Notes under the pieces: model-generated
What the model saw: the letters and a program-made list of their open reading frames with translations, nothing else
The model's database searches: none
Told to the model about the DNA's origin: nothing
Source: SAR116 cluster bacterium AG-390-L20
GTDB lineage: Bacteria > Pseudomonadota > Alphaproteobacteria > Puniceispirillales > Marisalimonadaceae
Direction of reading: 5' to 3'
Length of the DNA stretch: 64,000 nt
Assembly: GCA_003278095.1 (NCBI GenBank)
Contig: QCHB01000002.1
Location: 124,001 to 188,000 of the forward strand
Shown here: positions 751-59,267 of the stretch, one piece after another
How positions within the stretch are numbered: position 1 is the first letter of the stretch
Layout: every line of letters begins with the position of its first letter
Program-made: the position numbers and the translations under genes

Positions 751-825
751 GGGACTATAGCTCAGCGGGAGAGCACTTCGTTGACATCGAAGGGGTCACT
801 GGTTCAATCCCAGTTAGTCCCACCA
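751..825 (+). tRNA. tRNA-Val (GAC)
   Basis: A complete cloverleaf. The acceptor stem GGGACTA pairs with TAGTCCC, the D-arm is AGCTCAGCGGGAGAGC, the anticodon stem CTTCG/CGAAG encloses loop TTGACAT (anticodon GAC at 783-785), and the T-arm contains GGTTCAATCC. CCA is encoded at 823-825. It serves as a probable integration anchor, because part of its 3' end reappears near 3119-3134. Confidence 0.95.
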
Positions 826-840
826 TTTTTTGATAATGGT
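822..840 (+). repeat. Small inverted repeat that includes the tRNA-Val CCA end
   Basis: ACCATT (822-827) and AATGGT (835-840) form a 6-bp stem with a 7-base loop, starting inside the mature 3' end of tRNA-Val. A comparable but longer stem sits at the end of tRNA-Lys. A T-rich run follows only about 20 bases later, so a terminator role is uncertain. Confidence 0.4.
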
Positions 841-970
841 AAGATTTAATTTCTAGTAATTTTTTTTAGTAAAATAATTAAAAGTTTAATATATAAGCAT
901 TTTTCCTATGTAAAATATTGATGCTATCTTTATAAATTTTTATCTTATAAAGTATCTAATTGATACCCTT

Positions 971-1010
971 TTCTGTCTATTCTGTTATTGTGTAGTACAG
1001 AAAAAAACTT
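971..1010 (+). repeat. Left imperfect direct repeat flanking the acyltransferase gene
   Basis: This stretch contains TTCTGTCTA (971-979) and TAGTACAGAAAAAAACTT (993-1010), separated by extra bases. Both blocks recur at 3056-3080 on the same strand: the first 9 of 9, the second 16 of 18 bases identical. It lies 20 bases before the acyltransferase start. Together with the tRNA-Val fragment it suggests element ends or an old duplication. Confidence 0.5.
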
Positions 1011-1030
1011 TTAAGTTAAGGAATTAATTT

Positions 1031-3025
1031 ATGAATTATCGTTCTGAAATTGATGGTTTAAGAGCGTTTGCAGTAATTGGTGTAGTTTTATATCATATAA
1101 AGTTTTCTTTTTATCACATTGATTTTTTCAAAGGTGGTTTTTTAGGTGTAGATATTTTTTTTGTAATTAGTGGTTATCTCATTGGTGGTTTGCTTCTAAC
1201 AGAATTAAATAATAGAGGTTCAATTAATATGTTGTATTTCTATGAAAGAAGAGCTCGTAGAATTCTTCCTGTTTTATTTTTAGTAATTTTTGTTTTTTTT
1301 ATAGTTGCATCATTTTCTTTATTTCCAACAGATTTTCTTGATTATTCTAAGAGCGTAATAAGTTCTTTATTTATGGGATCAAACTTTTTTTTTTATTCAC
1401 GAAGCATTGAATATGGAGCGCCAGACTCACTTCTTTTTCCTTTGCTTCATACTTGGAGCTTAAGTATAGAAGAACAATTTTATCTTATAGCTCCCTTATT
1501 CGCGATAATTATTTTTAATTATTTTAGAAAGTATCTACTGACAATAGTTATTGCATTTATATTATTAAGCTTTCAATTTGCAATGTCAGTTTCAATGTTT
1601 GATGATAAACTAAATTTTTATTTTCCGTTTTCGAGAATTTGGGAACTTCTTATTGGAGTTTCGTTGGCATATTCTAAAATTTATCACCCAAAAACAGAAA
1701 ATAAATTATTAAAAAAAGTTTTTCCAATTTTTGGGTTTTACTTAATCTTACATTCATTTGTATTTTTCAATTTTTCGTCATCATTTCCTGGAATATTAAC
1801 TATAATTCCAATTATTGGTACATGCTTAATTATTATATTTTCCTCTAAAAATGATTTAGTCGGAATAATTCTAGGATCAAAAACCATATCAAGTATTGGT
1901 TTAATTAGCTTTTCTATTTATTTATGGCATTTCCCAATCTTTTTATTTTCTGGTTATTATTTTCCAGAACCAACTATGACAATAAAGTTATTTTTAATTT
2001 TTTTAACTTTTTTGATTTCTTTTATTTCTTTCAAATATATTGAAACACCATTTAGATCCAAGAATTTAATTAATACTAAGAATTTTTTAAGTATAATAAC
2101 TTTTACATTTATTTTTTTAATCATAACTGCATTAACAATCATTCGCTTTGAGGGTTTTGAAAATCGTCCTTTTTATAAAAAATATCAAGATTATTTTGTA
2201 AATTATGAATATGACCTTGGAAAACTTAAAAATGATAGAAAAGAATTCTTTAAATTAAATAAAAAGTACAATCCAGAAAAAAATGAAAAACCAGTTTTAT
2301 TAATTGTTGGAAACTCTCATGCAAAAGATTTATTTATTTCTTTATTACATTCAAAAAAGTTTTCTAACAAATTTGAAATAATTATTTCACCTGATATTCA
2401 GTTAGCTTGTTTTGATAATAGTGATTTAAAGTTATCTAATATTGCTTCTTCATTTTACTCTTCTGAAGCATATGCAAAAAGTGACATTATATTTATATCT
2501 TCTAGATATTATTTTGAAAATAAGTGCAAAAGAAGAAATCTAATTTTACCTATAAAAAGCGATTTTAAGGGTATGGATGCTCTTATTAAACAATCTAAAA
2601 CCGACAATAAAAAAATTGTATTATTTGGAAACATTCCTGAGTTTCCTTCATCTGGAGGATTTCCCTCGTTAACTGATAAAATCATGCATTCAATAAAAGA
2701 GGGTGAGAAAGATAAACTTGTCAAATCACCTATAAGATTTTTAAAAGACAAATTTGATAAGGAATTTTTTAATAACTTGAATACGAATAGAACCAACAAA
2801 ATCAACAAAAAAGTTAAAAAAATTGCAGATCTTAACAAGATTAATTATTTTGATTTCAAGGATATTTTTTGTAATTCTGCAGAAAAAGTGTGTTATTCAT
2901 TTAATACTGAAGGTAAAAGAATCTACATAGATTATGGTCACCGTTCTTTGTCTGGATCTCGTTTTTTTGCTAAAATAATTGATAATTCGAATCTTATATA
3001 TTTAACTGATGAAATAAGTGAGTAA
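1031..3025 (+). CDS. Membrane O-acyltransferase with C-terminal SGNH domain (OafA type)
   Basis: A 664-residue inner-membrane protein. The first roughly 365 residues are an acyltransferase-3 domain: it opens with the family's RSEIDGLRAFAV motif and early LYH histidine, and has about ten hydrophobic helices. The rest is a periplasmic SGNH-hydrolase domain, with GNSHA near residues 427-431 (nucleophile Ser) and a DYGH motif near 635 supplying the Asp-His pair. Proteins of this build transfer acetyl or other acyl groups across the membrane to surface polysaccharide, O-antigen or peptidoglycan. No glycan genes lie beside it, so the acceptor is unknown. It sits alone between tRNA-Val and a partial tRNA-Val copy, flanked by direct repeats, as in a small acquired islet. 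No clear Shine-Dalgarno sequence beyond AAGG precedes the ATG. Confidence 0.88.
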   Translation: MNYRSEIDGLRAFAVIGVVLYHIKFSFYHIDFFKGGFLGVDIFFVISGYLIGGLLLTELNNRGSINMLYFYERRARRILPVLFLVIFVFFIVASFSLFPTDFLDYSKSVISSLFMGSNFFFYSRSIEYGAPDSLLFPLLHTWSLSIEEQFYLIAPLFAIIIFNYFRKYLLTIVIAFILLSFQFAMSVSMFDDKLNFYFPFSRIWELLIGVSLAYSKIYHPKTENKLLKKVFPIFGFYLILHSFVFFNFSSSFPGILTIIPIIGTCLIIIFSSKNDLVGIILGSKTISSIGLISFSIYLWHFPIFLFSGYYFPEPTMTIKLFLIFLTFLISFISFKYIETPFRSKNLINTKNFLSIITFTFIFLIITALTIIRFEGFENRPFYKKYQDYFVNYEYDLGKLKNDRKEFFKLNKKYNPEKNEKPVLLIVGNSHAKDLFISLLHSKKFSNKFEIIISPDIQLACFDNSDLKLSNIASSFYSSEAYAKSDIIFISSRYYFENKCKRRNLILPIKSDFKGMDALIKQSKTDNKKIVLFGNIPEFPSSGGFPSLTDKIMHSIKEGEKDKLVKSPIRFLKDKFDKEFFNNLNTNRTNKINKKVKKIADLNKINYFDFKDIFCNSAEKVCYSFNTEGKRIYIDYGHRSLSGSRFFAKIIDNSNLIYLTDEISE

Positions 3026-3055
3026 TTCACAAAGTGACAATAAAAAGATGCCTAG

Positions 3056-3080
3056 TTCTGTCTAGTACAAAAATAAACTT
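3056..3080 (+). repeat. Right imperfect direct repeat flanking the acyltransferase gene
   Basis: TTCTGTCTA at 3056-3064 overlaps TAGTACAAAAATAAACTT at 3063-3080, matching the two blocks found at 971-979 and 993-1010. It begins 31 bases after the acyltransferase stop. The left copy has about 15 extra bases between the blocks. Confidence 0.5.
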
Positions 3081-3111
3081 AATGGTTTTAATAGTTTACA
3101 TAGCCATGCGA

Positions 3112-3136
3112 CAGTTTTAATCCAAGTTAGTCCCCA
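3112..3136 (+). repeat. Partial copy of the tRNA-Val 3' end (possible attachment-site remnant)
   Basis: Bases 3119-3134 read AATCCAAGTTAGTCCC and match 15 of 16 bases of the tRNA-Val T-arm and acceptor end at 806-821. Similarity continues weakly upstream (10 of 13 bases). The rest of the tRNA is not present. A displaced tRNA 3' end in the same orientation is the typical mark of a tRNA-targeting integration event; no integrase remains. Confidence 0.5.
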
Positions 3137-3148
3137 ACATAAACTAAA

Positions 3149-4201
3149 TTAATTATTCAACAATCTTCCTTGTATAACCATATTTGAGGCAGTCTTATAA
3201 GTTACTTTAGTATCTTTAAATCCTGCTTGATTTAATATAGAAAATAATTTTTTTGGGCCTGCTTGAGCTCCAAGTGCTAATCCAACTTCTTGAGATTTAG
3301 ATGCTGGAATACATGCAATTGTAGAAAATGAATAGTACATTTGTCCTATTAGATTAAAGTTATTTTCTGGCAGATCATCAGCTGTAGGCTCAACAAGCAT
3401 AATTATTCCATTTGCATTAAGCTTTGTTTTTGCATATTGGATTGCTCCAATTGGATCACCCATATCGTGAAGACAATCAAAAAAAGCAATTATGTCGTAT
3501 TTTCCTTTATAATTTTTAGCATTATTTACTCTAAATTCTAAATTTTTAAGGTTTGTATTATTTTTTTTTGCTTCTATAATTGAAGGTTCATGCGGATCAA
3601 TTCCTATTACTCTTGAATTATTATATTTTTCAGCTATTAACGAAGTTGAATATCCGTGGCCACAGCCAATATCTGCAAAACTAGCACCTTTACTAAGCAT
3701 TTCGTCTACTCCATCAAGACTAGGTATCCATTTTTTAATTAAAAAAATAGAATACGATGGCTTAAAAAATCTTGCAGATCCAGATAAACAACATGGATGT
3801 AGATTTCCCCAACCTGTTCCTTTACCATTTTTAAAATTGTCTTTTATGATATCTATATTATGAATTGCTCCTACTAAATTTTCGAAACCTCCAATCATAA
3901 GAGAAATACTATTTTCATCTCCTAAGACTGCAAATTGCTCTTCACTTAGAAAAAATTCCTGATTTTGTTTATCGTAATTTATATATCCAGCAGCCGCTAA
4001 CGAAAGTAACCATTCTCTTATATATCTATGATCCATTTTAACTTGAGCGCTAAATTTGTCTGAGGTACATGGACCTATCTTAAATAAAGTCTTAAACAGA
4101 TTGAGCTCATCTCCAATTCTCATCATGGGTATTAGTGCACCTGCTGCCATATCTTGCATAATTTTGTATTGTAACTTTCTTGTTTCTTCAATATTTGCCA
4201 T
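3149..4201 (-). CDS. Class I SAM-dependent methyltransferase with N-terminal winged helix
   Basis: A 350-residue protein starting at the ATG at 4201, which has GGAG 8 bases upstream; a further in-frame ATG at 4249 lacks such a site. Residues about 20-95 look like a winged-helix dimerisation domain (DELNLFKTL, then RYIREWLLSLAAAGYI). The SAM-binding domain follows: motif I FADIGCGHG near residues 175-183, an acidic GIDPHEP loop, and FFDCLHDMGDP as motif IV. This layout resembles the Rv2258c group and O-methyltransferases of natural-product type, whose substrates are mostly unknown. The gene stands alone, ending just beside the tRNA-Val remnant and divergent from the thiolase-like gene. The substrate cannot be inferred. 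Confidence 0.75.
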   Translation of the reverse strand: MANIEETRKLQYKIMQDMAAGALIPMMRIGDELNLFKTLFKIGPCTSDKFSAQVKMDHRYIREWLLSLAAAGYINYDKQNQEFFLSEEQFAVLGDENSISLMIGGFENLVGAIHNIDIIKDNFKNGKGTGWGNLHPCCLSGSARFFKPSYSIFLIKKWIPSLDGVDEMLSKGASFADIGCGHGYSTSLIAEKYNNSRVIGIDPHEPSIIEAKKNNTNLKNLEFRVNNAKNYKGKYDIIAFFDCLHDMGDPIGAIQYAKTKLNANGIIMLVEPTADDLPENNFNLIGQMYYSFSTIACIPASKSQEVGLALGAQAGPKKLFSILNQAGFKDTKVTYKTASNMVIQGRLLNN

Positions 4202-4363
4202 ACATAAACTCCATAAATATATAAAAATTGTACTATCTGTTTTTTTCAATACAATTAATAAATTAAATTATTAATCTTTAGAACTATGTTATATAATTTT
4301 CATAATTGTGAGTGTTTAACAATTATATTTAGCCTATATAGATAATAGATATGAGGCTTACAA

Positions 4364-11418: not shown

Positions 11419-11495
11419 CGGGCCATAGCGCAGCTTGGTAGCGCGTCCGTCTGGGGGGCGGAAGGTCGTGGGTTCAAATCCCGCTGGCCCGACCA
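11419..11495 (+). tRNA. tRNA-Pro (GGG)
   Basis: Full cloverleaf: acceptor CGGGCCA with TGGCCCG, D-arm GCGCAGCTTGGTAGCGC, anticodon stem TCCGT/GCGGA (one T-G pair) with loop CTGGGGG giving anticodon GGG, T-arm GGGTTCAAATCCC, encoded CCA at 11493-11495. Confidence 0.93.
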
Positions 11496-59002: not shown

Positions 59003-59078
59003 GGGCGCGTAGCTCAGTTGGTAGAGCAATTGACTTTTAATCAATGGGTCACAGGTTCGAATCCTGTCGCGCTCACCA
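59003..59078 (+). tRNA. tRNA-Lys (TTT)
   Basis: Cloverleaf with acceptor GGGCGCG/CGCGCTC (one mismatch-tolerant G-T pair), D-arm AGCTCAGTTGGTAGAGC, anticodon stem ATTGA/TCAAT with loop CTTTTAA (anticodon TTT), T-arm CAGGTTCGAATCCTG and encoded CCA at 59076-59078. Its wobble uridine is one of the known targets of MnmH, encoded at 24950-25996. Confidence 0.95.
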
Positions 59079-59100
59079 CTTTTCCTAATTTGAAAAGTGG
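59076..59100 (+). repeat. 9-bp inverted repeat beginning in the tRNA-Lys CCA
   Basis: CCACTTTTC (59076-59084) and GAAAAGTGG (59092-59100) form a perfect stem with a 7-base loop, beginning exactly at the CCA of tRNA-Lys. No T run follows, so it is not a standard terminator. It resembles the shorter stem at the end of tRNA-Val. Confidence 0.55.
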
Positions 59101-59267
59101 TAACAAATTTAATGACCTAGCTTATAATTCATTGAAAACATTATCTGATTTAAAATATCCTTAACTAAAACGCACCTATTTGGTTCTTAGGGTATACTTA
59201 TAAGTTAGGTCAGAATTCCTCCCAAAAGCATAAGGGGTCTTGTAAATTTTAAATTTAAATTTTAAAG

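Follow-up and report, generated by a model that had tools for sequence, protein, structure and literature searches.

Introduction

Aquatic bacteria have additive flexible genomic islands, described in Alteromonas (PMC5217437) and in the Methylophilaceae (PMC10872708), in which site-directed recombination adds or removes cassettes at one defined position; in the Methylophilaceae they are marked by the recurring last 20 bp of a tRNA-Lys gene (PMC10872708). The islands by themselves often do not reveal what moves their cassettes. Phage satellites (PICI, PICMI, VEIME and tycheposons; PMC11389934) are small elements at tRNA genes or other fixed sites that depend on a phage, and the known ones need satellite-encoded integrases for their excision (PMC10803314). 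Elements devoid of their enzyme are known for integrons (CALIN) and for insertion sequences (MITEs) (PMC11389934). In both cases the element provides recombination sites on which a related enzyme acts in trans. A further type, the cis-mobilisable elements (CIMEs), is flanked by att sites and has no integrase; these elements originate from ICEs, with which they move by accretion.

Here we describe an islet behind a tRNA-Val gene in a window of 64,000 nucleotides (the whole stretch analysed, positions 124,001-188,000 of contig QCHB01000002.1) from the SAR116 cluster bacterium AG-390-L20, and compare it with loci of its genus. As in additive islands, variable cassettes occupy one fixed tRNA whose 3′ end is repeated across strains; in contrast to these islands, the SAR116 cassettes have no integrase, and their ends go back to the attP arms of a phage family. 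The same two features, ends that copy the phage's own attP and the lack of an integrase, set them apart from phage satellites, which they resemble in size, in location and probably in phage dependence. Satellite integrase, replication and regulatory genes are absent and only cargo is present; in terms of tycheposons, the islet has the tRNA border and no tyrosine recombinase of its own. With CALIN, integron cassettes and MITEs they would share recombination sites without an enzyme, served in trans by a related one, except that a phage tyrosine integrase, a tRNA core and long arms take the place of attC sites or transposon ends. The arrangement fits a CIME-like structure as far as att sites and the missing integrase are concerned, with ends derived from a phage and not from an ICE. 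We found no precedent in open-licence papers for phage attP serving as cassette ends or for integrase-less satellites using the att sites of a helper. Because cassette ends can be matched to an uncultured phage family that is identifiable, the probable enzyme can be named and the question of what moves the cassettes can be put to the test. If our reading is true, an element that depends on a phage can be reduced to its cargo and the attachment site of that phage, and bacterial genes for surface and metabolic functions can be spread by a phage integrase although the phage itself does not stay in the genome.

Results

The islet extends from 827 to about 3140. It lies behind a tRNA-Val(GAC) gene identified by ARAGORN on the + strand (751-825 plus one base, to 826), whose last 25 nt plus a T form the attachment core (801-826, + strand); the same 3′ end is the core of the viral attP contigs described below. 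The initial annotation had reported a displaced copy of the tRNA 3′ end, and this copy is real. Positions 806-821 (AATCCCAGTTAGTCCC) recur at 3119-3134 as AATCCAAGTTAGTCCC with 15 of 16 bases identical, and the local alignment of the tRNA 3′ end against 827-4226 scored 28 while the best of 2,000 dinucleotide shuffles, the control that had been proposed, reached 25. The copy belongs to a decayed attR core at 3114-3140 (+ strand) with four mismatches plus an insertion. Immediately upstream, at 3042-3113 (+ strand), is a phage-type attP right arm (P arm) that carries integrase-type sites in tandem, a decayed one at 3048 and another at 3058-3068 (CTGTCTAGTAC). The left flank (827-1030, + strand) is where a phage left arm is expected from relatives; it is unrecognisable here, decayed or replaced, and its alignment to phage left arms was not significant, being beaten or equalled by 371 of 1,000 shuffles. 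Between the flanks lies an intact reading frame for a 664-aa membrane O-acyltransferase, a fusion of AT3 and SGNH domains (AT; 1031-3025, + strand). No integrase gene was found in the islet (827-3140), where the AT is the only sizeable forward gene. The first gene past the islet encodes a methyltransferase (3149-4249, - strand), and the variable region that begins at tRNA-Val reaches as far as tRNA-Pro(GGG) at 11419-11495 (+ strand), with conserved genes from 11532 on.

A second pair of direct repeats had been noted around the acyltransferase gene. The pair is present, 989-1010 and 3059-3080 being identical at 19 of 22 positions, and was matched by 6 of 5,000 shuffles of chosen stretches, which were selected after the fact, and by 21 of 5,000 shuffles of the whole intergenic stretches. 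Chance repetition in AT-rich DNA is ruled out by the shuffle tests. The two members do not carry the same weight, however. The right one, CTGTCTAGTAC at 3058, is a phage integrase-type site (P 0.0005 within the 93-bp flank), whereas the left one, TTGTGTAGTAC at 988, has the best arm-site score of the left flank and is weak on its own (P 0.08). It is situated 161 bp from the core, and phages have sites at +158 and +169; this possible decayed site (988-998, within the islet left flank) is only suggestive of an integrase arm site.

What the annotation had overlooked is that the islet end is, judged by its sequence, a phage attP arm, common to unrelated cassettes at this place and at tRNA-Lys. A search with the tRNA core yielded eight IMG/VR contigs that carry a joined attP, consisting of the right arm, the tRNA-Val 3′ end and the left arm, flanked in contigs of sufficient length by lysozyme-side genes on one side and by a gene for a 395-aa tyrosine integrase on the other. 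These contigs represent an uncultured family of temperate SAR116 phages; genes for terminase subunits, a tail fibre and replication proteins are present on sister contigs. In INPHARED the family has no close relatives: the integrases found there are remote (<60% identity), and a 390-aa virion protein had no match. Window positions 3042-3134 are 85% identical to positions -98 to -5 of phage contig L189, and the right arm without the core still scored 102 against the phages, with a shuffle maximum of 51. The phage arms contain tandem TGTCT[A/T]GT sites at -92/-82 (also near -166/-144) and at +158/+169. In all seven phages with the motif the A/T variant is identical in both arms, as expected for integrase arm sites, and we consider these sequences putative sites of this kind. 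All 18 viral contigs with arms also carry phage genes and none of them contains a cassette. Since IMG/VR selects for phage genes and would hardly list contigs without them, the fact that only phages were seen is no argument against packaging of cassettes.

In two related genomes (G012 and G023) tRNA-Val is followed at once by the methyltransferase gene. Because tRNA-Val directly precedes this gene in sister genomes, the AT islet is a true insertion; other genomes have other cargo at the same place. The alignment across relatives that had been suggested thus bears out the initial view of an insertion that is very small, bounded by a tRNA and devoid of an integrase gene, and the AT is far from universal, being missing at tRNA-Val in nearly all of 40 genus genomes. 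These relatives are partial genomes, about 50-100% complete, as is the genome from which the window itself was taken. The proposal that the islet is a mobile cassette holds for its structure, which is tRNA-bounded and integrase-less, but the copy in the window is probably no longer mobile and fixed in place, since the core and the right arm are decayed and the left arm is unrecognisable.

By alignment, displaced tRNA-Val 3′ ends in the genus have about 70 bp of flank upstream of the core in common. A sequence-only model (R1) built from nine arm fragments, the window's own included, recognised the arm at full length 15 times, in 12 genomes of the genus, and six of these copies were new. Across 136 genomes of the order, it matched nothing beyond the genus. 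It scored the arm at 3042-3113 with an E of 2.4e-21, the window sequence being part of the model. Besides the AT genome, the arm is thus seen in eleven other genus genomes, where it closes gene sets that are mutually unrelated: a TctA-type transporter operon with ComA-like genes (G001, G013, G016, G021, G042, G054), a SAM methyltransferase (G016, G018, G044), a gene with a class III cyclase domain (G023, G052), a B12/radical-SAM gene (G001) and a 1,399-aa STAND/NACHT protein (G047). Here as throughout, cargo functions are those of the family names only. Tandem pairs of cassettes, with one arm each, occur in G001 and G016. Right arms are thus found in the window and elsewhere, and in one locus (G042a) both arms match the phage attP arms.

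Two of these gene sets deserve a remark of their own. The cassette of G047 (L163:95-4944) encodes the 1,399-aa STAND protein, with SAM and NACHT domains, together with a 212-aa protein, ends in a phage arm that shares 92% identity with L190, and is a candidate defence cassette. A transporter operon at L113:3580-8457 includes two ComA-like genes (phosphosulfolactate synthase family) and may serve in sulfonate use.

The window contains a second attachment site, used by the sister phage group, at tRNA-Lys(TTT) (59003-59078, + strand). Directly behind it, at 59079-59245 (+ strand), is a phage-type left arm (attL) that has no phage genes behind it, is 81% identical to positions -27 to +169 of phage contig L198 and is recognised by the left-arm model with an E of 2.3e-28. 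Contigs of the sister phages encode a related integrase (51-59% identical) and have similar arms around a tRNA-Lys core. Most genus genomes examined show a left arm behind tRNA-Lys, followed by the cyclase, the TctA-type operon or other genes. Depending on the genome, the cyclase and TctA-type operon families are located at tRNA-Val or at tRNA-Lys, so the two tRNAs share cargo families.

The AT itself matches Pfam Acyl_transf_3 (4e-29) and SGNH (3.5e-16), and also PHROG 6705, 'O-antigen acetylase', a phage moron family (9.6e-125). The gene has a GC content of 24.8%, lower than the 30.0% of the window. A related AT (E 1e-30 or better) was found in only three others among the 40 genus genomes. 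The AT of G042, 48% identical over the aligned part, is the sole other AT at this tRNA-Val; it is in reverse orientation and is accompanied by a left arm of 224 bp, which shares 94% identity with a phage contig, plus a remnant of a right arm. A pattern-based search found no AT relatives in viral contigs, and by sequence there were none among solved structures at E 0.01. Going by the family names only (Acyl_transf_3 plus SGNH, and PHROG 6705), acylation by this enzyme might alter phage receptors.

Discussion

We have arranged these data in a model in which bacterial genes without an integrase are enclosed by the attP ends of a phage and mobilised in trans by the integrase of that phage, a reading that we favour as the probable one. 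The islet would be the decayed form of an integrated cassette, with the attP ends of a SAR116 temperate phage and a bacterial cargo of one O-acyltransferase gene. The phage integrase may bind the arm sites shared by phage and cassette, and excise and insert cassettes in trans. A fresh insertion at the tRNA would displace older cassettes downstream, so that arrays grow. The AT, if expressed, may acylate a surface glycan. In a wider form of the model, which we put forward more tentatively, the phage integrase would run an integron-like exchange: genes and operons framed by attP copies (a right arm of ~190 bp with the tRNA core and a left arm of ~243 bp) would be excised and inserted in trans at both tRNA genes. 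The resulting arrays would contain genes for metabolism, for the cell surface and possibly for defence, and no integrase of their own. Some observations count against trans-mobile cassettes: no excised circle and no packaged or moving cassette came to light, every viral contig with attP is a phage, the left arm of the window is unrecognisable, a short phage ORF persists in one locus (G042a), and in G042 a tRNA-Val core terminates an operon located at tRNA-Lys, an arrangement unexpected from site-specific insertion there. While the structure of the cassettes can be read directly from the loci, their movement in trans is what we infer from it, and its main rival is the repeated deletion of prophages.

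According to this rival explanation, phages integrated with or beside the cargo and all phage genes were subsequently deleted, leaving attL and attR scars, the AT being a lysogenic-conversion gene. The arms consist of phage DNA, bacteria commonly contain defective prophages, and the assignment of the AT to the moron family PHROG 6705 would suit such an origin. However, a tblastn search with 297 phage proteins against 35 host loci produced no hit, the phage integrase was found in none of the 40 genus genomes, and no prophage of the attP phage family was found in the genus. The host loci retain only the intergenic attP region of the phage and never its larger genes. Moreover, the edges are clustered: 11 of 19 right arms end at -177 to -197, just beyond the last phage ORF (34 codons), and 10 of 22 left arms at +235 to +247, immediately ahead of a promoter-like phage sequence, as tallied by hand with one BLAST setting and mostly from the best phage match per arm. 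Most pairs of phages remain similar well past both points, and the edges therefore belong to the cassettes. The 34-codon ORF is retained in G042a, the only such locus seen. Many independent deletions would have been needed, ending at nearly the same two points and sparing no large phage gene. In addition, cargo stands next to attP in no phage contig, and a transporter operon and metabolic genes would be odd cargo for a phage. Prophage deletion thus accounts for the arms, but neither for the edges nor for the missing phage genes, and we regard it as unlikely.

A second rival, which appears improbable, is that homologous recombination between strains alone swaps segments of the hotspot, the cassettes having been built once, long ago, and none of them moving now. 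The conserved flanks could indeed recombine, and cores and left arms are decayed in many loci. The case of G042 (C17; L166/L210) is instructive here: the TctA-type operon behind tRNA-Lys has a tRNA-Val core at its end and a further left arm after it, an arrangement more suggestive of homologous recombination in a shared left arm than of site-specific insertion. The cyclase and the operon could have moved between the two loci by ordinary homologous recombination of this kind. On the other hand, some host arms are 92-94% identical to phage contigs, and the methyltransferase cargo, 93-94% identical among genomes, is closed by differing phage-type arms in G016 and G044 compared with G018.

Finally, it is very improbable that the islet is an ordinary tRNA genomic island that was moved by the ~320-aa tyrosine integrases of relatives and later lost its integrase gene: several relatives do have such a gene immediately after tRNA-Val or its 5′ fragment (G009, G013, G014, G016, G020, G042 and G051 have them at tRNA-Val), but their elements have arm sites of the type TGTCACAC, partial tRNA copies (1-64 or 8-76) and ends dissimilar to the right arm of the islet, which matches phage attP instead, so that mobility through these integrases is ruled out on arm sequence.

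These integrase elements fall into two classes. In G009, G013, G016 and G020 (L117, L120, L123 and L127) they have TGTCACAC arm sites, only tRNA-Val 1-64 (or 1-53) left upstream and a full copy at the far end, and contain a conserved protein of ~470 aa that matches PHROG 4756, of unknown function. In G014 (L121/L122), G042 (L167) and G051 (L176) the full tRNA-Val lies beside the integrase gene, and the copy on the far side, whose 5′ end differs, corresponds to roughly tRNA-Val 8-76. Further phages appear to use tRNA-Val as well, as four viral contigs (L183, L185, L186 and L187) carry a longer tRNA-Val core, starting from about the anticodon, with different flanks.
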